Source of the DNA: Marinomonas lutimaris
Lineage (GTDB): Bacteria; Pseudomonadota; Gammaproteobacteria; Pseudomonadales; Marinomonadaceae
Length of the DNA stretch: 64,000 nucleotides
NCBI RefSeq assembly: GCF_019426345.1
Contig: NZ_JAHLLW010000001.1
Span: 62,001 to 126,000, forward strand
Direction of reading: 5' to 3'
The position numbers were made by a program, and so were the translations under genes. Below, in pieces: positions 2,859-50,016 of this stretch. Each line of letters opens with the position of its first letter. The first letter of the stretch is position 1. The notes beneath the pieces were generated by a model. It was not told where the DNA came from. It worked only from the letters and a program-made list of their open reading frames with translations, and did no database searches.

Positions 2859-3701
2859 TTATCGCAAAGCATTAAACTCACGCAACAGCTCATGGTAACC
2901 CGCCACATAACTTGGATATTGCAAACGCCAACCTTGTGACAACAGGTATTGGCCTTGAATACGTTTCCCTGAAGTCGGAACAAAACCTTCACTGCTGCTC
3001 ACAGCAACTTTAGAGCCAAGGCAAGTTGCCAGCCACAACTTCACTTCCCACATAGAAACTGGCGTTTGGTCGGTCACAATAACCTGTGCAGGAATGGTTT
3101 TATCGGTTAATGCGGAGTTTGCTAATAATACCAAAGCAGAAACAACGTCGTCGCGATGAATGCGATTAGTCCAGCTGTTGGCTTCCCAATCTTTGCCACT
3201 TAAAACCGTTTCTAGTAACCGATAACGCCCCGAACCATAAATCCCAGAGCAACGCACTGCCACACTAGAGAATGCAGCCGATAAAGATTGCTCGGTTTCG
3301 AGTAAAATCTTGGCGGTTGCCGAGGTCGGTTGTGCTGGTGTGGTTTCATCAATCCACTCACCTTGGCTTTGCCCGTAGACACTGGTACTTGATACAAAAA
3401 ACACCTTCGGTTGCTTAGCCATGTCTCTGTAGCGGCGAATCAGCACCTGCGCTGTATCAAAATAAGCCGCACGATACGCCTCTTCATTGCGACCATTAGG
3501 CGTCATTATTAGAAACACCACATTCGCATCAGGCAAGGCGTCGTCGCTCATTTCAACAAGGTCACCCGTTATGCCTATTACACCATTCGGGAATTTATTT
3601 TTTGTGCGACGAATACCAGTGACAACATGGCCTTGAGCGATCAACTCAGTTGACAATCCTGAGCCTAAATCACCGCAGCCAGCGATTAAAATATTTGCCA
3701 T
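2859..3701 (-). CDS. NAD(P)-binding SDR-type epimerase/dehydratase family protein (YeeZ-like)
   Basis: A 280-residue protein with an N-terminal Rossmann signature (IAGCGDLGSGL, residues 6-16) and an SSTSVYGQ segment typical of extended short-chain dehydrogenases of the NAD-dependent epimerase family. The compact length and GDLG-type glycine loop resemble the YeeZ group of extended SDRs. The substrate is unknown. It runs convergent to ridA and divergent from oxyR. A ribosome binding site (GGAGAAAACAA) precedes the ATG. No sugar-nucleotide cluster surrounds it, so it may be a stand-alone housekeeping enzyme. Confidence 0.75.
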   Translation of the reverse strand: MANILIAGCGDLGSGLSTELIAQGHVVTGIRRTKNKFPNGVIGITGDLVEMSDDALPDANVVFLIMTPNGRNEEAYRAAYFDTAQVLIRRYRDMAKQPKVFFVSSTSVYGQSQGEWIDETTPAQPTSATAKILLETEQSLSAAFSSVAVRCSGIYGSGRYRLLETVLSGKDWEANSWTNRIHRDDVVSALVLLANSALTDKTIPAQVIVTDQTPVSMWEVKLWLATCLGSKVAVSSSEGFVPTSGKRIQGQYLLSQGWRLQYPSYVAGYHELLREFNALR

Positions 3702-3862
3702 TTGTTTTCTCCAAAATACATTAAAAACGAATGTGTGCTTTTAGTATTAATAGGTTCATCCAAGAAGAAATACTCAGCAATAAAAAAGGAACGAGTATAC
3801 TTTATCAAATTATGTATTATCATAGTTATTAACAATGAATCAGCCTAAGTAAAAGGTGTGCT

Positions 3863-4768
3863 ATGACATTAACGGAATTGAAATACATTGTAATGCTAGC
3901 CGAAGAGAAACATTTTGGCCGTGCAGCAGACCGCTGCTATGTATCGCAACCAACGCTCAGTGTCGCCGTGAAAAAGCTGGAAGAAGAGCTTGGCACGGCT
4001 ATTTTTGAACGCAGCAAAAGTTCAGTTTATATCACACCATTAGGCGAGCAAATCATCACTCAGGCCAAGCGGGTGCTGGATCAAGCCAACATGATTAAAG
4101 AGCTGGCGACCTCAGGTAAGAATCAATTAAAAGGCCCACTCAAAGTAGGTGCGATCTATACCATCGCCCCGTATTTATTCCCTTTTATGATTCCTGCATT
4201 ACACAGCTCGACATCTGGTATGCCATTGATCATTGAAGAAGATCTCACCGAGAACTTACGCCCTAAACTACGTAATGGCGAACTAGACGCCATCATTGTG
4301 GCGCTTCCGTTCCGTGAGCCAGACGTGGTGACACAGCCAATTTACGAAGAAGAATTTGTGGTTCTTATGCCAAAGAACCACCCATGGACAAAACTCACAC
4401 ACATAGAAACCGACCAGCTTTCTACCGATAATCTGTTGTTGCTTGGCAAAGGCCATTGTTTCAGTGAGCAAGTTTTAGAAGCTTGTCCTTTGGTAACAGA
4501 GGGCGAATTTGGTGATGGTCGCACTATTGTTAATGGTAGTTCGTTAGAAACCATCCGTTACATGGTAGCGTCTGGTTTAGGTGTGACCGTTTTGCCGAAA
4601 TCCGCCGTCACCAATATTAATCACGATATGTTGGAAGTGCGCCCTTTTACTGAGCCAGCACCGAAACGTACTGTTGCCTTAGCTTGGCGAGCCAGCTTTC
4701 CGCGCCCGAAAGCCATTGAAGCCGTGAGCCAGTCTATCCGTGATGCTTGCAAACATCTGAATTTATAG
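3863..4768 (+). CDS. oxyR: Hydrogen-peroxide-sensing LysR-type regulator OxyR
   Basis: A 301-residue LysR-family activator with an N-terminal winged HTH (residues 1-60, HFGRAADRCYVSQPTLS). The redox segment reads LGKGHCFSEQVLEAC, placing cysteines at 199 and 208, exactly the positions of the disulfide-forming pair in E. coli OxyR. This separates it from generic LysR proteins. OxyR induces catalase, alkyl hydroperoxide reductase and related defences on oxidation by H2O2. The gene is followed at once by recG, the arrangement known from Pseudomonas. The 161-bp region shared with the divergent SDR gene should hold its promoter. Confidence 0.95.
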   Translation: MTLTELKYIVMLAEEKHFGRAADRCYVSQPTLSVAVKKLEEELGTAIFERSKSSVYITPLGEQIITQAKRVLDQANMIKELATSGKNQLKGPLKVGAIYTIAPYLFPFMIPALHSSTSGMPLIIEEDLTENLRPKLRNGELDAIIVALPFREPDVVTQPIYEEEFVVLMPKNHPWTKLTHIETDQLSTDNLLLLGKGHCFSEQVLEACPLVTEGEFGDGRTIVNGSSLETIRYMVASGLGVTVLPKSAVTNINHDMLEVRPFTEPAPKRTVALAWRASFPRPKAIEAVSQSIRDACKHLNL

Positions 4769-4776
4769 AGAACAGC

Positions 4777-6858
4777 ATGATCGACGGATTAGACACTCAG
4801 GATGTTCGTGAGCTAAAAGGCGTTGGTGATGCCATGGCCGAAAAACTGGCCAAGCTGCATTTGAATACAGTACAAGATCTGCTGTTTCATTTACCGATTC
4901 GCTATCAAGACAGGACGCGCGTTGTGCCAATCGGCATGCTACGCTTTGGTGACGAAGCCGTTATCGAAGGCCAAGTCACAGGTGCTGAAATCAAAATGGG
5001 TAAACGTCGTAGTTTACTGTGTCGTATCAAAGATCACACAGGCACCTTGTGTTTACGCTTCTTTCATTTTTCCGCTGCGCAAAAAAAACAACTGGAATCC
5101 GGTAAACGCGTTCGCTGTTTTGGTGAAATCCGCCGTGGCAGTACAGGATTTGAAATCTATCACCCAGAATACAAAGTCATTGGTGAAGACGAAACACAGG
5201 AAGAAACAGCACAACTTACGCCCATTTATCCGCTGACGGATGGTTTAACGCAAACCAAGATTCGCCAATTGTGCGAGCAAGCTTTAGAACGTTTAACACC
5301 CTACAATCTGCAAGAATGGCTACCGGATGAAATCCGCACCCAATTCAGTTTGCCACCGCTGAGCGACGCCATTCATTTTCTGCATCATCCGTCGAGAGAA
5401 GCGAACCTCGAATTACTCAGAGCGGGAACGCATCCCGCGCAATATCGCTTGTCCTTTGAAGAACTCATGGCCCATCAGCTTTCTCTGATTGGTAAACGCA
5501 TGAAAGCCAAACAAGATGCCGCAATTAAGGTTCAAACCGCAGGTGAGTTAAGCCAACGACTGTTGCAACAATTGCCTTTTTCGCCAACCAATGCACAAAA
5601 TCGAGTATTTCAAGAAATCCTTAACGATCTCAACACAGGTCACCCTATGCTGCGTTTGGTACAAGGTGACGTAGGGTCAGGGAAAACCTTGGTGGCCGCT
5701 TTAGCTGCTGCGTCCGTCGTACAAGCTGGCTACCAAGTCGCCATCATGGCACCGACGGAAATTCTCGCCGAACAGCATTATATTAATTTCACCCAATGGT
5801 TTGAGCCGCTTGGTTTAAAAGTCGCATGGATGATCGGCAAACTTAAGGGCAAAACTCGCGAGAAAGAGCTCGCTGATATCGCTTCGGGTGCAGCACAGAT
5901 TGTTGTCGGTACTCATGCCTTATTTCAAGACACTGTCGAATTTGATCGTTTAGCGTTGGCCATTATCGACGAACAACATCGCTTTGGTGTGCATCAGCGC
6001 ATGGCCTTACGTGAAAAAGGCATGAAGCACGGTTTCCAGCCCCATCAGCTCATAATGACTGCTACACCGATTCCCCGAACTTTAGCCATGTCTGCCTATG
6101 CCGATTTGGATTGCTCCATGATCGACGAGCTACCGCCTGGTCGAACGCCGGTAAATACCATTGTTGTATCGGATCAGCGCCGACAAGAAGTGATTGATCG
6201 CGTGAAAAGCGCCTGCGAAGAAGGCAAGCAAGCCTATTGGGTCTGTACCTTGATTGAAGAATCTGAAGCCTTACAATGCCAAGCCGCTGAAGACACGGCA
6301 ATTTTGCTACAAGAGCAATTGGGCAATTTGTCCATTGGCTTAGTGCATGGTCGACTCAAAGCGCAAGAAAAAGCCGACATAATGGCTAGATTTAAAGCCG
6401 GAGAAATTCAGCTCTTGGTCGCGACAACCGTCATCGAAGTCGGTGTAGATGTGCCAAACTCTAGCCTGATGGTAATAGAAAACCCTGAACGTCTTGGCCT
6501 TGCTCAGCTTCACCAGTTACGTGGTCGTGTTGGTCGGGGGCAAACTGCCAGCCATTGTGTGCTGCTTTATAAAGCACCATTAGGACAACAAGGCAAAGAG
6601 CGACTTTCCACCATGCGAGAAACCAGCGATGGTTTTAAAATTGCAGAGAAAGACCTTGAATTACGAGGCCCAGGTGAACTGCTCGGCACCAGACAAACTG
6701 GCCTTTGGGAATTCAAAGTAGCGGATTTACAGCGCGATAAAAACTTGCTCGATGATGTGCAAAAAGCCGCTTCTCTATTGCACAGTCGTTATCCTGATCG
6801 TGTCTCACCACTTTTATCTCGATGGTTACCTAATCACGATCAATATTTAAACGTCTAA
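4777..6858 (+). CDS. recG: ATP-dependent DNA helicase RecG
   Basis: A superfamily 2 helicase that remodels stalled replication forks and Holliday junctions. An N-terminal OB-fold wedge region precedes the motor. Walker A is GDVGSGKT near residue 297, motif II is the RecG-typical DEQH near 396, and motif VI is QLRGRVGRG. The frame is open back to an ATG at 4747 inside oxyR, but the ATG at 4777 gives 693 residues, the length of E. coli RecG, and starts at MIDGLDTQ, 8 bp after the oxyR stop. I chose it for that reason. Tight spacing suggests cotranscription with oxyR. Confidence 0.96.
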   Translation: MIDGLDTQDVRELKGVGDAMAEKLAKLHLNTVQDLLFHLPIRYQDRTRVVPIGMLRFGDEAVIEGQVTGAEIKMGKRRSLLCRIKDHTGTLCLRFFHFSAAQKKQLESGKRVRCFGEIRRGSTGFEIYHPEYKVIGEDETQEETAQLTPIYPLTDGLTQTKIRQLCEQALERLTPYNLQEWLPDEIRTQFSLPPLSDAIHFLHHPSREANLELLRAGTHPAQYRLSFEELMAHQLSLIGKRMKAKQDAAIKVQTAGELSQRLLQQLPFSPTNAQNRVFQEILNDLNTGHPMLRLVQGDVGSGKTLVAALAAASVVQAGYQVAIMAPTEILAEQHYINFTQWFEPLGLKVAWMIGKLKGKTREKELADIASGAAQIVVGTHALFQDTVEFDRLALAIIDEQHRFGVHQRMALREKGMKHGFQPHQLIMTATPIPRTLAMSAYADLDCSMIDELPPGRTPVNTIVVSDQRRQEVIDRVKSACEEGKQAYWVCTLIEESEALQCQAAEDTAILLQEQLGNLSIGLVHGRLKAQEKADIMARFKAGEIQLLVATTVIEVGVDVPNSSLMVIENPERLGLAQLHQLRGRVGRGQTASHCVLLYKAPLGQQGKERLSTMRETSDGFKIAEKDLELRGPGELLGTRQTGLWEFKVADLQRDKNLLDDVQKAASLLHSRYPDRVSPLLSRWLPNHDQYLNV

Positions 6859-39215: not shown

Positions 39216-39989
39216 TTGACTCAGTCTGATTCCGATGTTTTCAGCCTACCTACCGAAGCGGACGCCCACGACCATGATTACCATCAACTGGTGGTTGTGC
39301 TAGATGGCAATACCGATTTCGATATAGAAGGCAAAGGCAAGCAATTGCATACTGGCGAAGGTTGTATTCTTCCGTCAGAAAATAGCCATGCATTTGCGGG
39401 TCTGGGTGAAAATCGCATCATGGTGGTCAACCTGCCCATTCCGCCGCAAAAAGGCATTACCGACGAAGAATACGAAGTCGTATCGCGTTTGTTTGATCAA
39501 GCGGCGTATTTTCAGCTTAACCCTCGTTTACAGATACTGGCTTCGGCTCTATCTGGTGAATTACAGCAATACCCAAATGATATGATTCTTGCTCGCGCTT
39601 GCGGCAACACCTTGTTAAGCGCTATTCGCCATCAGATCAACAATAAAGATGTCCGTTCCCGTGGCAACCATCTTGATATCGATAAACTCGACCAATTTAT
39701 CGAACTGAATTTATCTCGCCGTGTTCATATCGATCAGTTGGCAAACTTCTGCTTTTTAAGTGTCAGCCAGTTTCACGAGCGCTTTAAAGATCGTACTGGC
39801 ATGACACCACATCAATATCTAATGCGTAAACGTTTAGAACGCGCGCAAAGCTTACTCGCAGAAGGTTTCCCGCCTATTCAAGTGGCCGAAATGTGTGGCT
39901 TCTCCAGCCAAAGCGCCATGACCAACGTCTTCTCCCAAACCCTCGGTATTACACCGCTTAAATACCAAAAGCAATTTGGTAATCGCTAA
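39216..39989 (+). CDS. AraC-family regulator with N-terminal cupin, possible proline-catabolism regulator
   Basis: 257 residues. An N-terminal cupin-like effector domain (AHDHDYHQLVVVLDGNTDFDIEGK, GCILPSENSHAF) precedes a C-terminal double HTH (LANFCFLSVSQFHERFKDRTGMTPHQYLMRKRLERA and VAEMCGFSSQSAMTNVFSQTLGITP). Translation appears to begin at TTG 39216, with AAAGG 6-7 bp upstream. No ATG or GTG fits as well. It is 312 bp ahead of putA on the same strand. PutA here lacks its own DNA-binding domain, and Pseudomonas uses an AraC-type activator (PruR) for putA, so a similar role is plausible but not shown. Confidence 0.82.
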   Translation: MTQSDSDVFSLPTEADAHDHDYHQLVVVLDGNTDFDIEGKGKQLHTGEGCILPSENSHAFAGLGENRIMVVNLPIPPQKGITDEEYEVVSRLFDQAAYFQLNPRLQILASALSGELQQYPNDMILARACGNTLLSAIRHQINNKDVRSRGNHLDIDKLDQFIELNLSRRVHIDQLANFCFLSVSQFHERFKDRTGMTPHQYLMRKRLERAQSLLAEGFPPIQVAEMCGFSSQSAMTNVFSQTLGITPLKYQKQFGNR

Positions 39990-40301
39990 TTCTATTTGTT
40001 CATAAAACACCAAAAATCGCCCCATTTGTAAGCATTTCAATCTATTACTCAAAACTTCTGCACAATAATAAATCAGCGCCAAATTTATTATTGTGGAGTC
40101 GGACTTTCTTATAAAAAAAAACGATTTTTTCGAAAGACAATTTATCCCTTCTGTCACTAAAGTGTCAGCATTATCCAGACATGCATTTTTTTGATTAAGC
40201 AGAGTGAAAAGTAGTCAAAATAGTGTTAACTGCTCTATAACAATATGCGGCCTTAATAAAAAACCATTTGGTTTTTTATGTTAACGCGGGAGAATCCAAC
40301 C
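39990..40301. other. 312-bp intergenic region before putA
   Basis: AT-rich. TATAAC at 40236-40241 could be a -10 for putA, though no good -35 stands 17 bp upstream. No open frame of interest. GGGAG at 40286-40290 is the putA ribosome site. Confidence 0.45.
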
Positions 40302-43300
40302 ATGTTTAAAGCGATTGAGGTGTTACAGCCTAACTTCATTCAGCGTCCACTCAATGAATTGTGGCAGCTTATTTCCCCTCTTTATAATATGGATGAAGAG
40401 AAGTGGTTAAATGAGTTATTGCCTTTGGCCAAACCTACCGAAGGTGAGCTAGAAACCCAAACCAATGCCGCTGCAAACTTGATTGCCGAAGTCCGCAAAG
40501 ACGACGATAGCATGTCAATGATTGACGCTTTGCTATTGGAATACAGCCTAGACACTAAAGAAGGCATTTTGCTGATGTGTTTGGCAGAAGCGCTAATGCG
40601 TGTGCCAGATAAAGAAACTGCCGACGCCTTCATCAAAGACCGTTTGAGCGTTGCCGATTGGGCATCTCACGCTAAAAACTCTGACTCTTTCTTCGTTAAC
40701 GCTTCTACTTGGGGCTTATTATTGACGGGTAAAATCGTCACCATGGACGAGAAAAAAGACGGAACGCCAGCTAACTTGGTAAACCGCATGGTAAACCGTG
40801 TTTCGGAGCCTGTGATTCGTAAAGCGATGAACCAAGCCATGAAAATCATGGGACATCAATTCGTTCTAGGCCGCAGCATTGAAGAGGCCTTGTCTCGTGG
40901 TAAAGGCTACCGTGACAAAGGTTACACTTACTCTTTCGACATGTTGGGTGAAGCGGCACTAACGGCTGCCGATGCTGACAAATACCTAAAGTCTTACCTG
41001 CAAGCGGTTGAGTCTGTCGGCAAAGACACCTACAGTCAAAAACATCGCCCAACCATTTCTATCAAGTTATCTGCGCTACACCCGCGTTATGAAGTGGGTT
41101 GTGAAGAACGCGTAATGACAGAACTTTTTGAAAGCGTTAAAGGTCTGATTACCAAAGCTCGCTCGTTGAACGTCGGTATCACCATTGATGCGGAAGAAGC
41201 AGATCGTCTAGAACTGTCTTTGCATTTGTTTGAAAAATTGTTCCGCGACGAATGCACCAAAGGCTGGGGCTTATTTGGCCTTGTGGTTCAGGCTTACTCA
41301 AAACGCGCTCTACCGGTTTTAGTTTGGTTGGCAGCACTATCTAAAGAACAAGGCGATCGCATTCCTGTGCGTCTTGTGAAAGGCGCTTACTGGGATTCTG
41401 AAATCAAAATGTGCCAACAGCGTGGCATCAATGGCTACCCAGTTTACACTCGCAAAGAATCTACCGACGTTTCTTACTTGGCTTGCGCTCACTTCTTATT
41501 AAGCGAACATACTCGTGCAAATATCTTCCCGCAGTTTGCGAGCCATAACGCACACACTATCGCGACGATTAGCTGCATTGCTAAGCAGTTAGGTGCAACG
41601 ACAGAAGAATTTGAATTCCAACGTCTACACGGTATGGGCGATGCACTTTACAACCGCTTGATCAAAGACAGCGACATCTGCGTGCGTATTTACGCACCTG
41701 TCGGTAGCCATAAAGACTTGCTTCCATACTTGGTTCGTCGTCTGCTAGAAAACGGCGCAAACAGCTCATTCGTTCACCGTTTAATCGACGCTAGCTACCC
41801 GATTTCTGAGTTGATTGGTCACCCCGTTACTACGCTCGAAAGTCGTAAAACACTAGCAAACCCACACATCAGCTTGCCTTCTGGTTTATTTGACGACCGT
41901 AAAAACTCATTCGGTCCGAACATCGAGATTGATTCTGAGTGGACGCCTTTCAAAGCGAAAATCGATGCTTTCATGGGGCAAGACACCCAATGGCGCGCCT
42001 TTCCTATCGTTGGTGGCGAGAAAGTAGCAACAGGTCAAACGCATTCTATTGAAAGCCCTTACGACCACAGCCAAACTGCAGGTCAAATTGACTGGGCAGA
42101 CACAGCGACCGTTACCAAGGCAATTGACCTTGCTGAAGCCGCTTTCCCTGCATGGTCTGCGCGTCCAGCAACAGAACGTGCTGATTGCCTAGATAAAATG
42201 GCCGACTTGATGGAAGAAAACTACGCAGAATTGATGGCACTTTGCCACCGTGAAGCTGGTAAAACCATTCAAGACAGCATCGACGAAGTACGTGAAGCCG
42301 TTGATTTCTGTCGCTACTATGCTCAACAAGCTCGTAGCCACTTTGCCAATCCAACCAGCTACACAGATTTCTTAGGTCAAGAAAAACAAGCCAAGCTAAA
42401 CGGCCGCGGTGTGTTCACTTGTATCAGCCCGTGGAACTTCCCATTGGCAATCTTTACAGGCCAAGTGGTTGCCGCTCTTGTAGTAGGTAACACTGTGGTT
42501 GCGAAGCCGGCTGAACAAACCAGCTTAATCGCTTTCCGTGCCATTGAAATGCTACATCAAGCAGGCGTTCCGACTGACGTACTTCACCTATTACCAGGTG
42601 ACGGCGCAACGGTTGGTGCCCCACTTACTAGCGACAAACGCATTGCGGGTCTTGCCTTTACAGGTTCCACTGGAACAGCCCAATTGATCAACCGTACTCT
42701 AGCGGCTCGTGGCGTTGCACCAGTACCAGTGATTGCGGAAACTGGTGGTCAAAATGCCATGCTGGTTGATTCCACCTCTTTGCCTGAGCAAGTAGTACGT
42801 GATGCGGTGCGTTCCGCCTTCGCTTCTGCAGGACAACGTTGTTCAGCATTACGCGTATTGTTTGTTCAAGCGGATATTGCAGACCGTGTTATTCCGATGA
42901 TCAAAGGTGCTATGCAAGAACAAACAGTTGGTTTGCCTTATCTACACAGTACAGACGTAGGTCCGGTTATCGACAAGAAAGCCCAAGACATGTTGCTTGA
43001 GCACATCGAACGCATGACAAAAGAAAGCAAACTGATTGCCCAAGCAGAGCTTCCAGACTTCGCTAAAAACGGCACGTTCGTTGCACCAACGGCATTCGAA
43101 ATCAGCAGCATTGACCAGCTAACAGATGAGAAATTTGGCCCTATCCTTCACGTTGTACGCTACAAAGCACGTGATTTGGATAAGATCATCGACACCATCA
43201 ATAACTCAGGCTTTGGTTTGACTATGGGCGTTCACAGCCGCAACGAAACCACCTGTGCACGCATAGCTAGCCGCGCTCGTGTTGGTAACCTTTACATCAA

Positions 43301-43424
43301 CCGCGACCAAGTCGGTGCGGTAGTTGGTGTTCAGCCTTTCGGCGGACAAGGTTTATCAGGCACAGGACCAAAAGCTGGCGGCCCACATTACCTTCAACGC
43401 TTCGCCATTGAGCAAGACCTTTAA
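40302..43424 (+). CDS. putA: Bifunctional proline dehydrogenase / P5C dehydrogenase PutA, without C-terminal domain
   Basis: 1040 residues from the ATG at 40302, which follows GGGAG; an ATG eight codons earlier is open. It oxidises proline to P5C with FAD and then to glutamate with NAD+. PRODH barrel motifs: RLVKGAYWDSEIK, FASHNAHTIAT, YAPVGSHKDLLPYLVRRLLENGAN. The ALDH domain has the folding motif SPWNFPLAIFTGQ and catalytic Cys847 in AGQRCSALRV. There is no N-terminal ribbon-helix-helix, so it should not repress its own gene. The chain stops soon after LSGTGPKAGGPHYLQR, where long PutAs continue into a C-terminal domain; that domain is encoded by the next gene. Confidence 0.95.
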   Translation: MFKAIEVLQPNFIQRPLNELWQLISPLYNMDEEKWLNELLPLAKPTEGELETQTNAAANLIAEVRKDDDSMSMIDALLLEYSLDTKEGILLMCLAEALMRVPDKETADAFIKDRLSVADWASHAKNSDSFFVNASTWGLLLTGKIVTMDEKKDGTPANLVNRMVNRVSEPVIRKAMNQAMKIMGHQFVLGRSIEEALSRGKGYRDKGYTYSFDMLGEAALTAADADKYLKSYLQAVESVGKDTYSQKHRPTISIKLSALHPRYEVGCEERVMTELFESVKGLITKARSLNVGITIDAEEADRLELSLHLFEKLFRDECTKGWGLFGLVVQAYSKRALPVLVWLAALSKEQGDRIPVRLVKGAYWDSEIKMCQQRGINGYPVYTRKESTDVSYLACAHFLLSEHTRANIFPQFASHNAHTIATISCIAKQLGATTEEFEFQRLHGMGDALYNRLIKDSDICVRIYAPVGSHKDLLPYLVRRLLENGANSSFVHRLIDASYPISELIGHPVTTLESRKTLANPHISLPSGLFDDRKNSFGPNIEIDSEWTPFKAKIDAFMGQDTQWRAFPIVGGEKVATGQTHSIESPYDHSQTAGQIDWADTATVTKAIDLAEAAFPAWSARPATERADCLDKMADLMEENYAELMALCHREAGKTIQDSIDEVREAVDFCRYYAQQARSHFANPTSYTDFLGQEKQAKLNGRGVFTCISPWNFPLAIFTGQVVAALVVGNTVVAKPAEQTSLIAFRAIEMLHQAGVPTDVLHLLPGDGATVGAPLTSDKRIAGLAFTGSTGTAQLINRTLAARGVAPVPVIAETGGQNAMLVDSTSLPEQVVRDAVRSAFASAGQRCSALRVLFVQADIADRVIPMIKGAMQEQTVGLPYLHSTDVGPVIDKKAQDMLLEHIERMTKESKLIAQAELPDFAKNGTFVAPTAFEISSIDQLTDEKFGPILHVVRYKARDLDKIIDTINNSGFGLTMGVHSRNETTCARIASRARVGNLYINRDQVGAVVGVQPFGGQGLSGTGPKAGGPHYLQRFAIEQDL

Positions 43425-43438
43425 GGGGAGACATTACT

Positions 43439-44122
43439 ATGACAATCGTACAACCTATCCAAATTCAGGTCTCTCAAAAAGTCTTCGAAGCATGGGACAA
43501 GCTTGGCGTAAACGCTCGTGCAGAAAAACTGCAGAAAGCCCTTAACGCTTTTCCTAACGAACAAAGAAAAATGGCCGCTTGGCAGATCGATAACGCCAAG
43601 CAATCTATTGCAGAAACACGTGTAATGCCTGGGCCAACAGGCGAACGTAACGAACTATCTAACCAAGGCCGTGGCGTGTTTCTTTGCATGTCTTTTATCG
43701 AAGGCGATAAAGCAAAAATAGGTTTAGTCGGTCAAGTATTTGCTGCACTTATTGCGGGTAACCCTGTCATTACTGTTGGCCCAACGGGTCAAGAAATCAT
43801 GGATATGATTTCTCCATTCGTGACTGAAGGTGTCGTGCAGAACATTGCAGAATCGGCTCAAGATTCTTTGATCGAAGCCAACCACCTTGCTGGTATTGCA
43901 ACACTTTGCGACCCTATGCAAGCGCAACTGCTAAGCCAACGTCTTGCAGCGAAAAGCGGCCTAATCTGCCAATTGGTTGAAGAAACTGATGCAGAAAACC
44001 TAAGTGTCATTGCAAAGCCGCATTACGTTCTGCGCTTTGTCACTGAACGCACTGTGTCTAACAACACAACAGCGATCGGTGGCAACGCAACACTGCTTGA
44101 ATTAGGCAGCATGAACGACTAA
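43439..44122 (+). CDS. Stand-alone PutA C-terminal (ALDH-superfamily-like) domain protein
   Basis: A 227-residue protein starting 14 bp after putA behind a strong GGGGAG ribosome site. It has no catalytic ALDH motifs but matches the C-terminal domain of long PutA proteins: MPGPTGERN (residues 63-71; E. coli PutA has LPGPTGERN), a Rossmann-like middle with VGQVFAALIAGNPVI, and the terminal ERTVSNNTTAIGGNATLLELG, corresponding to the conserved NTAAAGGNASL tail of E. coli PutA. In long PutAs this domain and tail help close the tunnel between the two active sites. Here it presumably binds PutA in trans. The E. coli comparison is from memory. Confidence 0.8.
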   Translation: MTIVQPIQIQVSQKVFEAWDKLGVNARAEKLQKALNAFPNEQRKMAAWQIDNAKQSIAETRVMPGPTGERNELSNQGRGVFLCMSFIEGDKAKIGLVGQVFAALIAGNPVITVGPTGQEIMDMISPFVTEGVVQNIAESAQDSLIEANHLAGIATLCDPMQAQLLSQRLAAKSGLICQLVEETDAENLSVIAKPHYVLRFVTERTVSNNTTAIGGNATLLELGSMND

Positions 44123-44157: not shown

Positions 44158-44189
44158 AAGGGCCCTTCTTGGTAGCAAGAAGGGCCCTT
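44158..44189. terminator. Bidirectional terminator between the put operon and TRAP binding-protein gene 1
   Basis: A 14-bp perfect stem (AAGGGCCCTTCTTG / CAAGAAGGGCCCTT) around a GTAG loop. Plus-strand exit is ACTTTTATT; minus-strand exit is TTTGTTTTTTT, a better T-run. It serves both convergent units. Confidence 0.92.
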
Positions 44190-44218: not shown

Positions 44219-45328
44219 TTACTCAAGCTCACGAGCATTAATAAAAGCCCGCTCAGACACTTCGTGCCATGCTCTGACTTTACTGTTGAACTCTTTGAAT
44301 GAGTTGTAGACTTTTTGGCTCATAGGATCCGCAGCTGCGACTTCATCTAGTGTCTCAGCCGAGGCTTTTTTCAATGCCACTAACACTTCTTTTGGAAATG
44401 GTTTCAAAACCACATGATGCTCATTCACTAACGTTTCTAACGCGGCGTTGTTACGCGCGGTAAACTCATCCAGCATATCGGCATTCACTTGGCGAGTCGC
44501 CGCTCGAACAATCAGTTGAAGATCGTTTGGTAAGGCTTCAAACGCTTCTTTATTGTAGATCGCTTCCATGGTTGAACCTGGCTCATGCCAACCTGGGTAG
44601 TAGTAGAATTTGGCCGCTTTGTACAAACCAAACGCTAGGTCATTGTATGGGCCAACCCATTCTGTCGCATCAATGGTGCCGGTTTGCAGTGCGGTGAAGA
44701 TCTCACTCCCTGGCAAGTTAACTGGTGTGCCACCTACCTTTTTTAATACTTCGCCACCTAAGCCAGGAAGACGCATTTTCAAGCCTTGGAAGTCAGCAAG
44801 AGAATTGATCTCTTTGTTGAACCAACCCCCCATTTGTACTCCAGTATTGCCTGCTGCCATCGGGATAAGGTTAAAAGGTGCATAGGTTTCTTCCCACAAT
44901 TTCAGGCCGCCACCATAGTGGAGCCATGAGTTCATTTCTTGTGCAGTAAAGCCAAACGGTACGGCAGAGAAAAACTGAGCCGCTGGAGCTTTGCCTTTCC
45001 AGTAGAAAGCACCACCATGACCCACTTGAGCAGTGCCACGTGATACCGCATCAAACACTTCCAACGCAGGTACTAGCTCGCCTGCAGCGTATACTTTTAC
45101 CACTAAGCGCCCATTCGACATTGCGGTAATATTTTCCGCTAAATGTTCTGCCGCTGTGCCTAAACCAGGGAAATTTTTCGGCCAAGTAGTGACCATTTTC
45201 CAATGAATGACATCCGCCGCTTTTTCCGCCTTGGCTGTTTCTTTTTCTTCTGATCCACCACAAGCCACCAAGCTTGCCGCTGTCAAACCAACCAACGCCA
45301 GTTTTCCCCACATTTTTATTATTTTCAT
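44219..45328 (-). CDS. TRAP transporter binding lipoprotein, paralogue 1 (TakP/DctP-like)
   Basis: A 369-residue solute-binding protein of the TRAP DctP superfamily, closest in pattern to the alpha-keto-acid/mannitol-type TakP group (VTTWPKNFPGLGTAAEHL, AGELVPALEVFDAVSRGTAQ, MRLPGLGGEVLKKVGG with the conserved Arg, ATEWVGPYNDLAFGL). The signal peptide ends in a lipobox SLVAC with Cys23, so the protein is probably lipid-anchored. First of three tandem paralogues on this strand. No permease genes adjoin. The nearest dctQM pair is 6 kb away on the other strand. The ligand is not known. Confidence 0.88.
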   Translation of the reverse strand: MKIIKMWGKLALVGLTAASLVACGGSEEKETAKAEKAADVIHWKMVTTWPKNFPGLGTAAEHLAENITAMSNGRLVVKVYAAGELVPALEVFDAVSRGTAQVGHGGAFYWKGKAPAAQFFSAVPFGFTAQEMNSWLHYGGGLKLWEETYAPFNLIPMAAGNTGVQMGGWFNKEINSLADFQGLKMRLPGLGGEVLKKVGGTPVNLPGSEIFTALQTGTIDATEWVGPYNDLAFGLYKAAKFYYYPGWHEPGSTMEAIYNKEAFEALPNDLQLIVRAATRQVNADMLDEFTARNNAALETLVNEHHVVLKPFPKEVLVALKKASAETLDEVAAADPMSQKVYNSFKEFNSKVRAWHEVSERAFINARELE

Positions 45329-45542
45329 TAATTATCCCTAAGAGACTAAATTACTTTATTTTTATAAAAGCTTTGCTTGATACTACGAACAAAGCAAAGG
45401 CGAGTCGACCAACCAACTCTATAGTCATAGCTTATTTGCTAAGTATTTTTAATAGTATGAATTGTAATATTAAGGCTCAAGGTTTTTTTGGTTTTATTTT
45501 TAGACAGTATTTATCAGTCGAATAAGTAAGTCCTATAAATAA

Positions 45543-45575
45543 AAAAGCTCCGTTATCATAGATAACGAAGCTTTT
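45543..45575 (-). terminator. Terminator after TRAP binding-protein gene 2
   Basis: A 15-position stem with one mismatch (AAAAGCT-C-CGTTATC with GATAACG-A-AGCTTTT, 3-nt loop), ending in a six-T run on the minus strand, 41 bp after the stop. Shows that paralogues 1 and 2 are separate transcripts. Confidence 0.88.
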
Positions 45576-45615
45576 ACTGATATTAACCAGCAATCAACAA
45601 CAGGCTTTTAAAAAA

Positions 45616-46725
45616 TTAATCGTCTGCTCGCGCATTAATATAAGCACGTTCAGAAACATCATGCCATTCACTTACTGGAGCTAAAAAGTTCTTGAACGAC
45701 TCATAGACTTTTTTACTCTCAGGGTCACCCGCAGCCACTTCGTCTAATGTCTCGTGAGAGGCTTTCTTAAGTGCCTCCAACAAGTCGCGAGGGAAAGGTT
45801 TAAGAATTACATTATGCTCATTTACCAAGGTGTGAAGCGCGGCGTTATTACGCGCGGTAAACTCATTAATCATGTCTAAATTGGCTTGTTTTACCGCAGC
45901 TCGGGCAATCGCTTGTAGGTCTTTAGGTAGAGCTTCAAAAGCCTCTTTGTTAAAGATAACTTCAACCGCAGAACCTGGCTCATGCCAGCCTGGGTAATAA
46001 TAATATTTCGCGGCTTTATATAAACCAAATGCCAGATCGTTATAAGGCCCAACCCATTCCGTCGCATCAATCGTGCCTGTTTGAAGAGCATTGAACACTT
46101 CACTACCCGGCAAATTAATTGGTGATGCACCGACTTTTTTCAGTACTTCTCCACCTAATCCAGGCATGCGCATTTTCAAGCCTTGGAAGTCAGCTAATGA
46201 ATTGATCTCTTTATTGAACCAACCGCCCATTTGTACGCCAGCGTTACCAGCTACCATTGGGATTAAGTTAAATGGCGCATAGATCTCTTCCCATAACTGT
46301 AAGCCACCGCCGTAGGCAATCCACGCGTTGAATTCTTGTGCAGTAAAGCCAAAAGGAACCGTAGAGAAAAACTGCGCTGCCGGCACTTTTCCTTTCCAGT
46401 AATAAGCAGTGCCATGGCCCATTTGCGCGGTACCACGAGATACAGCATCAAATACTTCTAATGCTGGAACAAGTTCGCCTGCAGCATAGACTTTAATATC
46501 CAAACGACCGTTGGACATCTCTTTAATATTATTCGCAAGTGCTTCTGCACCCGTTCCCATTCCTGGGGCGTTTTTTGGCCAAGTTGTCACCATTTTCCAA
46601 TGAATAACATCGATTTTTTGCTCAGTCTTTGTGGTTTCTTTTTCTTCAGACCCACCACAGGCTACTAAAGCCGTAGTAATTAAACCGACAAAAGCCACTT
46701 TTGCCCATATTTTTATTTTGTTCAT
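45616..46725 (-). CDS. TRAP transporter binding lipoprotein, paralogue 2 (TakP/DctP-like)
   Basis: A 369-residue paralogue of the genes on either side, the same length as paralogue 1. The lipobox is ALVAC with Cys23. Conserved blocks: VTTWPKNAPGMGTGAEALA, YAAGELVPALEVFDAVSRGT, MRMPGLGGEVLKKVGASPI, ATEWVGPYNDLAFGLYKAAK. Differences cluster at the first domain (NAPGM for NFPGL) and C-terminus (FLAPVSEWHDVSERAYINA). It has its own terminator and a 164-bp upstream gap that can hold a promoter. It likely serves a TRAP permease encoded elsewhere. Confidence 0.88.
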   Translation of the reverse strand: MNKIKIWAKVAFVGLITTALVACGGSEEKETTKTEQKIDVIHWKMVTTWPKNAPGMGTGAEALANNIKEMSNGRLDIKVYAAGELVPALEVFDAVSRGTAQMGHGTAYYWKGKVPAAQFFSTVPFGFTAQEFNAWIAYGGGLQLWEEIYAPFNLIPMVAGNAGVQMGGWFNKEINSLADFQGLKMRMPGLGGEVLKKVGASPINLPGSEVFNALQTGTIDATEWVGPYNDLAFGLYKAAKYYYYPGWHEPGSAVEVIFNKEAFEALPKDLQAIARAAVKQANLDMINEFTARNNAALHTLVNEHNVILKPFPRDLLEALKKASHETLDEVAAGDPESKKVYESFKNFLAPVSEWHDVSERAYINARADD

Positions 46726-46815
46726 TCACTTTATCCATTAAGAAACGAATTGCATTGATAATCATCGCTTTACCTAACACTCTGTCAATAATAGTGAGTG
46801 AAGCCAAAACGATAA

Positions 46816-46851
46816 AATAAGCCCTGTTATCAATCGACAGCAGGGCTTATT
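46816..46851 (-). terminator. Terminator after TRAP binding-protein gene 3
   Basis: An 11-bp stem (AATAAGCCCTG / CAGGGCTTATT) with a 14-nt loop, followed by TTATCG on the minus strand, 39 bp after the stop. The T-run is weak but the position matches the terminators of the other paralogues. Confidence 0.75.
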
Positions 46852-46889
46852 CGTATAGCTAGTTTTTTATGCCATAAAAAAATGACGTA

Positions 46890-48005
46890 TTAATCTGTCG
46901 CACGAGCGTTAATAAACGCACGCTCAGAAATATCATGCCACTGACTAACAGAGCTCAAGAAGCTAGTGAAAGAGTCATAGACTTTTTGGCTCATTGGATC
47001 ATTAGCAGCCACTTCTTTTAGTGTTTCATCAGACGCAACACGCAAGGCTTCCAAAAGATCTTTAGGGAATTTTTTCAAAATGACATTGTGATCGTTAACT
47101 AAAGTGGTTAACGCCGCGTCATTTCGAGCAGTGAACTCACTTAACATACCCAAATTGGCTTGTTGTGCAGCAGAACGAACAATCTCTTGTAGATCTTCAG
47201 GTAGCTTATTAAACGCATCTTTATTAATCAGCGCTTCGACAGCAGAGCCTGGCTCTTGCCAACCTGGGTAATAGTAGTATTTCGCCGCTTTGTACAAACC
47301 AAACGCTAGGTCATTGTAAGGACCTACCCATTCCGTTGCATCAATGGTTCCAGTTTGTAATGCCGTAAATATTTCGCTACCGGGAAGGTTAATAGTAACA
47401 GCACCTACTTTTTTCAGTACCTCACCACCTAAACCAGGCATACGCATTTTTAGGCCTTGGAAATCCGCTAGAGAATTGATTTCTTTATTAAACCAACCGC
47501 CCATTTGCGCACCAGTATTACCCACGGCCATTGGAATAATATTAAAGGGTGCGTAGACTTCTTCCCACAGTTTTAAGCCACCACCGTATTCAAGCCAAGC
47601 ATTGAATTCTTGTGCCGTCATACCAAAAGGCACTGATGAGAAAAACTGTACCGCAGGAGCCTTACCTTTCCAATAATAGGCCGTGCTATGACCCATTTCT
47701 GCCGTACCACGAGACACAGCATCAAACACTTCTAGTGCAGGAACCAACTCGCCAGCGGCGTAGACTTTTACATCCAAACGACCGTTAGACATTTTAGTAA
47801 TATTCTTCGCTAACTCTTCAGCACTTGTGCCCAAGCCAGGAAAGTTTTTTGGCCAAGTCGTGACCATTTTCCAGTGAATTGCTTCTACTTTCTTTTCTAC
47901 TTTTGCCGTTTCTTCCGCTTTATCTGATCCGCCACAAGCGACCAAAGACAAAGCAAACAAACTGGCAAACGCCAATTTGCCTAATACCATTAAATTACGC
48001 ATCAT
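46890..48005 (-). CDS. TRAP transporter binding lipoprotein, paralogue 3 (TakP/DctP-like)
   Basis: A 371-residue paralogue of the two genes that follow it on this strand. The lipobox is SLVAC with Cys24, then GGSDKAEETAKVEKK, a charged linker. Conserved blocks are the same: WKMVTTWPKNFPGLGTSAEEL, MRMPGLGGEVLKKVGAVTI, ATEWVGPYNDLAFGLYKAAK. Tryptophan/glutamate changes (GWQEPGS for GWHEPGS) near the ligand pocket suggest some divergence in ligand. The start could be either of two consecutive ATGs; GAGGG precedes. Confidence 0.88.
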   Translation of the reverse strand: MMRNLMVLGKLAFASLFALSLVACGGSDKAEETAKVEKKVEAIHWKMVTTWPKNFPGLGTSAEELAKNITKMSNGRLDVKVYAAGELVPALEVFDAVSRGTAEMGHSTAYYWKGKAPAVQFFSSVPFGMTAQEFNAWLEYGGGLKLWEEVYAPFNIIPMAVGNTGAQMGGWFNKEINSLADFQGLKMRMPGLGGEVLKKVGAVTINLPGSEIFTALQTGTIDATEWVGPYNDLAFGLYKAAKYYYYPGWQEPGSAVEALINKDAFNKLPEDLQEIVRSAAQQANLGMLSEFTARNDAALTTLVNDHNVILKKFPKDLLEALRVASDETLKEVAANDPMSQKVYDSFTSFLSSVSQWHDISERAFINARATD

Positions 48006-49462: not shown

Positions 49463-49732
49463 ATGAGCGTCACAACAGTAAGACTACAAGATGATACTGA
49501 GCAGCGCTTAGAGATAATTGCTAACAAACTACAACGCAGCAAAGGCTGGATAATCAATCAAGCTTTAATTGAGTATCTTGAGAAGCAGCAGCTAGAACAA
49601 GAACGTTGGCAACAAACTCTAGAAGCGATGGAATCCGCTGCACAAGGAAAAGTGGTCGCGGGCGAAGAAGTTCACGAATGGCTAAACAGCTGGGGAACAG
49701 ATAACGAACAGGACGCACCGAGGGTAAAATAA
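49463..49732 (+). CDS. Ribbon-helix-helix antitoxin (CopG/RelB-like)
   Basis: 89 residues. The N-terminal TTVRLQDDTEQRLEIIANKLQRSKGWIINQALIEYL (split here for reading: beta strand TTVRL, then two helices) is a typical ribbon-helix-helix DNA-binding fold. The C-terminal half (about 50-89) is acidic and probably wraps the toxin. It overlaps the toxin gene by one base (TAATG). Expected to neutralise the toxin and repress the operon through the phased TGTATT sites upstream. Confidence 0.88.
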   Translation: MSVTTVRLQDDTEQRLEIIANKLQRSKGWIINQALIEYLEKQQLEQERWQQTLEAMESAAQGKVVAGEEVHEWLNSWGTDNEQDAPRVK

Positions 49733-50016
49733 TGAAACTGGTTTACACGGAAGAAGCCATTAACGACTTAAAACGGTTGCGTGATTTTATAGCCAAACAT
49801 AACCCAAATGCAGCGTTACGAATAGCACAAGAACTCATTAGTAAAATAAACCTACTCGTGGATTTCCCTCATGTCGGCACTACCGTTAAATTAGCACCGT
49901 CACCAGAAACAGTTAGGGACATGATTTTTGGCAATTACATTGTGCGTTACTCAATCCACAAAGAAACAATCATAGTACTTCGTATCTGGCATGGACTTGA
50001 GGGTGAACGTAAGTGA
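49732..50016 (+). CDS. RelE/ParE-family toxin
   Basis: A 94-residue RelE/ParE-superfamily toxin: MKLVYTEEAINDLKRLRDFIAKHNPNAA at the start, FPHVGTTVKLAPSPETVRDMIFGNYIVRYSIHKETIIVLRIWHG at the end (both in pieces typical of the fold). Whether it acts on ribosome-bound mRNA (RelE) or gyrase (ParE) cannot be told from the sequence; the GNYIVRY and VLRIWHG strands fit either. Its TGA stop and the opposite-strand stop of the next gene form one TGATCA hexamer. Confidence 0.88.
   Translation: MKLVYTEEAINDLKRLRDFIAKHNPNAALRIAQELISKINLLVDFPHVGTTVKLAPSPETVRDMIFGNYIVRYSIHKETIIVLRIWHGLEGERK

Follow-up and report, generated by a model that had tools for sequence, protein, structure and literature searches.

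In a 64,000-nucleotide stretch of the Marinomonas lutimaris genome (contig NZ_JAHLLW010000001.1, positions 62,001 to 126,000; hereafter the window, with positions counted from its first letter), the gene for the proline-to-glutamate enzyme PutA is followed by a 227-residue gene that carries the motifs of the PutA tunnel lid. We propose, with a probability of about 0.78 and from sequence comparison, that the two genes encode a two-subunit PutA whose lid sits on a non-catalytic half of an aldehyde dehydrogenase (ALDH), and, less surely, that this form evolved in parallel to the C-terminal domain (CTD) fused to long PutAs. The initial annotation had left the choice between a natural two-subunit enzyme and a relic of fission. 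The former part stood, in that the two products are probably subunits of one proline-to-glutamate enzyme, because the small gene adjoins every lid-less core that we examined; fission is disfavored, the nearest cores and lids being those of short PutAs, with the trees of the half-domain itself undecided. Substrate channelling is much studied in PutA as a model, and the PutAs of the papers cited here have their lid within the chain; with a separate lid protein, sealing could be tested by adding or omitting a subunit.

PutA joins proline dehydrogenase (PRODH) and pyrroline-5-carboxylate (P5C) dehydrogenase (P5CDH) domains. Type A proteins are short, with the lid elements (a flap and a C-terminal tail) in the same chain; type B and the trifunctional type C are long and carry the fused CTD. 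The features of the locus on which the argument turns are as follows.

40302..43424, + strand: putA, catalytic chain, 1040 aa, from the open reading frame (ORF) scan
42342..42401, + strand: decayed flap segment in the P5CDH domain of PutA, type A length kept, PGPTGE motif gone (coordinates counted by hand)
43422..43424, + strand: putA stop codon TAA, 13 residues past GPKAGG
43423..43430, + strand: Shine-Dalgarno-like site AAGGGGAG of the small gene, ending 8 nt before the ATG at 43439
43439..44122, + strand: stand-alone gene for the putative lid subunit, 227 aa, with helices, flap, Rossmann-like half-domain and tail, and without the ALDH catalytic domain
43619..43684, + strand: flap element of the putative lid subunit, residues 61-82, RVMPGPTGERNELSNQGRGVFL, conserved columns
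44033..44107, + strand: conserved C-terminal tail of the putative lid subunit, residues 199-223, RFVTERTVSNNTTAIGGNATLLELG, conserved columns

The catalytic chain stops short of the lid

By its Pfam domains (Pro_dh, Pro_dh-DNA_bdg and Aldedh) and its score against the PutA model NF008869 (1616.9 bits versus a cut-off of 747), the large ORF encodes a PutA, with PRODH and P5CDH domains in one chain; it is 97.8% identical to the PutA of M. polaris (L032). An alternative in-frame ATG upstream, at 40278, would give a protein of 1048 aa. The genome yielded one Pro_dh match only, and no second PutA was found in it. In length the chain fits type A (about 1000 aa), but the flap and tail that would have to lie in its own sequence are absent, as they are from all 65 split cores described below. 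It is not a type B PutA, the C-terminal domain being separated from the core by a stop and a frame change into two ORFs, nor a type C PutA, since a ribbon-helix-helix (RHH) match is absent among its Pfam hits up to E 1.

As the initial annotation had stated, putA ends directly after the ALDH domain, and type A PutAs continue into the tail at the very point where the window PutA stops. The small gene begins 14 nt past the stop, on the same strand and behind a ribosome site of its own; similar purine-rich sites precede it in most relatives read. It lies in another frame (43439 - 40302 = 3137, remainder 2), so one nonsense change could not join the two ORFs. A sequencing error or recent nonsense mutation, against which the initial annotation had argued, is excluded by this frame difference together with the conservation of the pair in relatives. 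A random downstream ORF was also considered and is excluded by the matches to the PutAs of S. meliloti (SmPutA) and B. japonicum (BjPutA) that follow.

The small protein resembles a PutA half-domain

No Pfam match of the small ORF reached its cut-off. Residues 30-223 align to positions 1138-1318 of the 1318 of NF008772 (trifunctional PutA), that is, to its C-terminal end (E 9e-15), and the ORF also matches the P5CDH part of NF008869 (E 1.9e-21); both scores lie far under the model cut-offs, as expected of a fragment. Searched as a single sequence, it matched SmPutA 1084-1235 (E about 1e-4); the match to BjPutA, at 629-791 plus 970-997, was stronger (E 1e-14). A profile of 16 homologues matched BjPutA 622-762 plus 970-997 (E 4e-38) and SmPutA 1076-1235 (E 1e-25). 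The similarity to PutA past the ALDH domain, on which the initial annotation had staked its view of the 227-aa product as the lid-bearing half-domain, is thereby present, and the profile search upholds that view.

Because the matches to BjPutA and SmPutA cover these ranges, the small protein consists, as far as the alignments go, of the beginning of an ALDH-like sequence followed directly by the final ~30 residues of PutA, with the intervening catalytic domain missing. It contains both tunnel-lid elements of PutA, a PGPTGE flap and an NTTAIGGNATL tail, and by sequence it belongs with the PutA C-terminal (ALDH-superfamily) domain, being ALDH-like, without a catalytic domain, and equipped with the PGPTGE flap and the NTTA.GGN tail. 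It does not belong to the P5C dehydrogenase families TIGR01238 and TIGR01237: for TIGR01238, whose cut-off is 485.2 bits, the protein of the window reaches 13.8, and 13 of 16 small-protein members match this model at E <= 0.01 (best 6.2e-11).

Core and small protein complement each other in the lid

To place the pair among its relatives, we read 122 loci, comprising 65 split loci, 37 fused PutAs and 20 short PutAs with their own tail. The 65 include two apparent duplicates (L041/L092 and L042/L106, seemingly the same contigs, given their equal lengths); pattern misses led us to reassign L140, L141 and L146 by hand to the short PutAs with tail, and L122 to the split loci; L039 was counted as split by its 3' part; and L090 and L108-L112 were left out of the analysis. 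By pattern search, flap and tail are missing from 65/65 split cores and both are present in 65/65 small proteins. Among the short type A PutAs, 18/18 were shown to have a PGPTGE-like flap in the P5CDH domain and an NxxA-x-GGN-type terminal tail. Fused PutAs have the tail in their C-terminal part in all 37 cases, and both flap and tail there in 36 of the 37 by pattern.

A census of the order gave the same picture without exceptions in either direction. It covered the 99 genomes, among the matches listed, whose PutA is >=55% identical to that of the window. By reading of the junctions, a lid-less core with a small gene beside it occurs in 40; in the remaining 59 both lid elements are in cis, with no small gene found beside putA; one of these 59 has PGVTGE instead of PGPTGE, and in another the contig (L174) ends soon after putA, so that the neighbor is not visible. 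Five further, less similar short PutAs likewise carry the lid in cis.

The small gene is constrained in its lid residues

The small gene is under purifying selection, with a ratio of nonsynonymous to synonymous substitution rates (dN/dS) of 0.013-0.110 across 14 Marinomonas pairs, compared with 0.022-0.040 for putA. Across 29 diverse small proteins, the commonest residue of a column has a mean frequency of 0.71 in the flap, 0.88 in the tail and 0.46 in the Rossmann part, and 0 of 226 circular shifts of the column labels equalled the conservation of the lid. A decaying relic without function would suit the variable Rossmann part and the loss of the NAD-binding patterns; the dN/dS values, the retention of frame and start, the lid residues invariant across families and the presence of the gene in all 40 split genomes of the order nevertheless make it very improbable.

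Catalytic motifs show the reverse distribution to the lid motifs. The ALDH signatures SPWNFP, which holds the oxyanion Asn, and FTG[ST] are present in 65/65 cores but in 0/65 small proteins, and loose patterns for the catalytic Cys, the general base and the NAD Lys occur in all 65 cores and in 1, 2 and 1 of the 65 small proteins, respectively. These counts bear on names already given to the pair. The gene table of a Vibrio campbellii paper lists 'putBCP', in which the small gene appears as PutC, a P5C dehydrogenase, and PutA as PutB, a proline dehydrogenase (PMC3858670); the genes were down-regulated together in a mutant and by their order are apparently putA, the small gene and putP. Judging from the gene order in another V. 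campbellii strain (L114), PutC is apparently the lid gene. That the small protein is a separate P5C dehydrogenase, leaving PutA merely a proline dehydrogenase, is extremely improbable, as its ALDH catalytic domain is missing (BjPutA 622-762 is joined to 970-997) and the motifs just counted are absent or rare in the small proteins; judged by sequence, neither name is supported. If our proposal holds, the annotation would be corrected for a gene that Vibrio and further marine bacteria carry.

Distribution of the split pair

An order-wide search with the small protein covered 390 genomes, 243 of them with some match; most of the matches listed fell in the P5CDH domain or in long, fused PutAs. Among those listed, 40 genomes had a stand-alone ORF (open frame 230-350 aa): 18/18 of the window's genus, 10 of family f37, 11 of genus g57 (family f35) and one outlier (G118, family f16). 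A short open frame at a contig end (G352:C72 572-1087, 364 aa) was left out, being probably part of a fused PutA. Searches of wider samples used a match limit of E 1e-15. Among the matches listed for the class sample (369 genomes), only the window's genome had an ORF of stand-alone size (<400 aa); among those listed for the phylum sample (398 genomes), 16 genomes had one, five from the window's order and 11 from elsewhere in the class. The latter represent three other families, with nine in one genus, and 10 of the 11 were read (L119-L128). Salinivibrio, Photobacterium and Vibrio carry the same pair, as seen by reading the junctions in a plasmid collection that includes second chromosomes; in Salinivibrio proteolyticus the order is araC, putA, an 'aldehyde dehydrogenase family protein' (236 aa) and putP. 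The survey of Marinomonas and relatives that the initial annotation had suggested thus returned the same pair in 65 loci, from Marinomonas, other families of the order and Vibrionaceae. Its description of the architecture as unusual did not survive, as the arrangement is found in every sampled member of whole groups.

The two genes adjoin in all 65 split loci read. Measured from the putA stop to the small gene's start, the distance ranges from -4 to +27 bp in 64 loci and reaches 73 bp in the remaining one; it is <=16 bp in 54/65, and the genes overlap in 6/65. This close coupling suggests linked expression, and in the window a consensus scan found no promoter-like site on the + strand between the two genes, which by sequence look like a two-gene operon.

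Three split loci deserve separate mention. Genome G331 has both a split pair (L046) and a separate fused long PutA of 1269 aa (L065). The split putA of the outlier G118 (L043) nests in the Marinomonas clade in the core trees despite its assignment to family f16, so its pair was possibly acquired by horizontal transfer; the PutAs of genus g16 of that family are only 50-52% identical to that of the window. In the public record, the PutA of Marinomonas rhodophyticola (L039) spans two frames, 2865-3320 and 3251-5983, reflecting a frameshift or a sequencing error.

Origin of the split

We built core trees from subsets of the 122 loci, with 73 rows (FastTree) and 50 rows (IQ-TREE). The split cores form one clade in both (support 99* and 100*, respectively), which sits within a clade (100*) otherwise holding only short, lid-bearing type A PutAs; none of the rows of that clade, 22 in the 50-row tree and 36 in the 73-row tree, is a fused PutA, and the fused rows lie elsewhere. 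The flap segment that remains in the split cores has a median length of 34 aa (65 cores), as in type A (34 aa, 20 proteins), compared with 22 aa in fused PutAs (36 proteins; L082 dropped after a pattern miss), and its mean identity is 0.26 in split cores (54 distinct) versus 0.55 in type A (20).

The lids themselves point the same way. With L143 and L151 dropped after pattern misses, the mean identity of split lids is 0.69 to the six nearest type A lids, 0.70 among themselves and 0.53 to fused lids. The nearest lid outside the split set belongs to the nearest type A set in 56/65 cases, to a tie of type A sets in 8/65, to another type A in 1/65 and to a fused PutA in 0/65. The tail form NTTA-x-GGN with V or I at x is found in 65/65 split lids, 6/6 of the nearest type A, 5/14 of the other type A and 0/37 of the fused. 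On 47 lid columns (102 distinct lids of 120), a tree constrained to group the split lids with those of the nearest type A proteins was 25.5 log units more likely than the free tree (approximately unbiased test, p-AU 0.979). On the strength of the core tree and the lid sequences, the lid subunit probably arose independently of the fused CTD, when the P5CDH part of a short type A putA was partially duplicated. In this scenario, the gene would have acquired a second, incomplete version of its 3' half; the duplicate would have kept the lid and lost catalysis, and the original would have kept catalysis and lost the lid.

The competing origin is that a long PutA of type B or C underwent fission, a stop codon and a new start having arisen where the CTD begins. 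We consider it unlikely: domain content and order are the same as in types B and C, and several of the tree results below are compatible with it, whereas the split cores group with short lid-bearing PutAs and away from every fused row, their flap segment keeps a type A length that is mostly shortened in fused cores, and the closest lid to each split lid is of type A in 65/65.

Several results weigh against our proposal or temper it. Grouping split with fused lids on the 47 columns costs 29.2 log units, yet is not rejected (p-AU 0.158), and the free tree search on these columns was itself not optimal. Of the half-domain trees (70 and 42 rows, in which long branches are rife), the 42-row tree groups split and fused CTDs on one side with support 93, not starred, and most CTDs also fall together in the 70-row tree; a tree with independent origins is 0.53 log units worse for the 42 rows, with p-AU 0.51, so that this value and the 0.158 above are compatible with a shared or a separate origin. 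Both core trees are unrooted. Since the split cores form one clade, the 40 split genomes of the census represent one evolutionary change kept without seen loss rather than 40 independent events. Finally, when the small protein was modelled by itself with AlphaFold2, the result was weak (mean pLDDT 60, pTM 0.67, flap and tail <50). Its best fold match is residues 4-222 to BjPutA 546-974 (Z 13.8, rmsd 4.0, 189 aligned), with ALDHs in general within one Z unit of that match, and SmPutA aligns to it through the P5CDH domain rather than the CTD; the fold comparison of the modelled structure thus indicates an ALDH-like protein and nothing beyond. Low confidence in the lid of the isolated model would fit a part that needs a partner, and may equally stem from the shallow alignment of 12 close relatives.

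Independently of the origin of the split, fused PutAs are scattered among short ones in the core trees. The label requires 8 and 6 changes in the two trees, at least 3 of them forced by starred branches (the fused rows considered are among L065-L084, L117, L118, L129-L139, L142, L156 and L157). The PutA CTD may have been gained or lost several times in the history of PutA.

Proposed mechanism

By homology, the small protein would bind the P5CDH side of PutA and lay its flap and tail over the mouth of the channel, such that P5C, or glutamate semialdehyde (GSA), could reach the aldehyde site without leaking. It would act as a dedicated, non-catalytic second protomer, taking the role that the second protomer would play in type A and the fused CTD in types B and C. 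If so, the split pair would parallel the CTD of long PutAs and supply a reason for that domain, namely a dedicated lid carrier in place of a second protomer.

Binding could instead serve mainly membrane association or redox sensing, with sealing secondary. One report connects lipid binding triggered by proline with the CTD, whose beta-flap it models close to the PRODH helices a8 and a5a (PMC5293562), which would suit such a role; in the same text, membrane binding by the type A BjPutA is insensitive to proline despite the same lid motifs, and in the small proteins the conserved columns are the lid columns, making this explanation distinctly unlikely. A further extension of our two-subunit proposal, speculative and quite improbable, is that a separate lid lets the cell set the ratio of lid to PutA or lets the lid dissociate, so that the enzyme could either channel in a sealed state or release P5C on purpose (osmotic or redox stress being examples of when), and that, with an independent origin, the same lid has moved onto a degenerate ALDH partner at least twice.

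Relation to known systems

Proline is oxidized by more than one polypeptide in Gram-positive bacteria and eukaryotes as well, where PRODH and P5CDH are separate enzymes. There it is the catalytic units that are separated, whereas here both remain in one chain and only the lid is separate. Among PutAs, the small protein shares with the CTD of types B and C (S. meliloti PutA, 5kf6; E. coli PutA) the makeup of a half-ALDH without catalytic domain and with flap and C-terminal tail. The C terminus of SmPutA forms a lid over part of the tunnel (PMC12398946), and in RcPutA, of type B, both P5CDH activity and channelling depend in part on the CTD (PMC5293562). The pair described here differs in that the domain is a separate gene, its lid sequence is nearer to type A, and the partner core keeps a full-length, decayed flap segment that is mostly shortened in fused PutAs. 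With type A (B. japonicum PutA, 3haz; short PutAs of the order), it shares the lid motifs and the absence of a Pfam RHH match in the window PutA, and the core, which shares about 54-65% identity with the order's short PutAs, groups among these in the tree. In type A, however, the lid is within the chain, and in BjPutA the tunnel is covered by a swapped oligomerization domain, exchanged between identical protomers (PMC5786444); here the lid is on another protein.

In the titles and abstract openings of the open literature searched, we found no PutA with its lid in trans; this is weak evidence of absence, and an earlier mention is possible. The genes are already in databases and figure in at least one paper. 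VCA1072 of V. cholerae may be the same gene as the small lid gene. A table in PMC9201469 gives VCA1072-1073 as an operon similar to PutA and PutP, with the remark 'authentic point mutation, causing a premature stop'.

Neighboring features

The following features flank the pair in the window.

39216..39989, + strand: AraC-family regulator with a cupin domain, upstream of putA (Pfam HTH_18, HTH_AraC, Cupin_2)
44158..44189, + strand: terminator-like hairpin with a 14-bp stem, 3' of the small gene, from a consensus scan

The putA gene of Salinivibrio is likewise preceded by an AraC gene. The scan for terminator-like sites reports consensus matches only and found 12 sites versus 6.1 expected. Downstream of the put genes and on the opposite strand lie three tandem genes for lipoprotein-like solute-binding proteins (DctP) of the tripartite ATP-independent periplasmic (TRAP) transporter type (44219-48005, - strand), 76-79% mutually identical, which represent a local triplication. 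Further on, an RHH antitoxin-like gene and a ParE toxin-like gene form a pair with a 1-base overlap (49463-50016, + strand).

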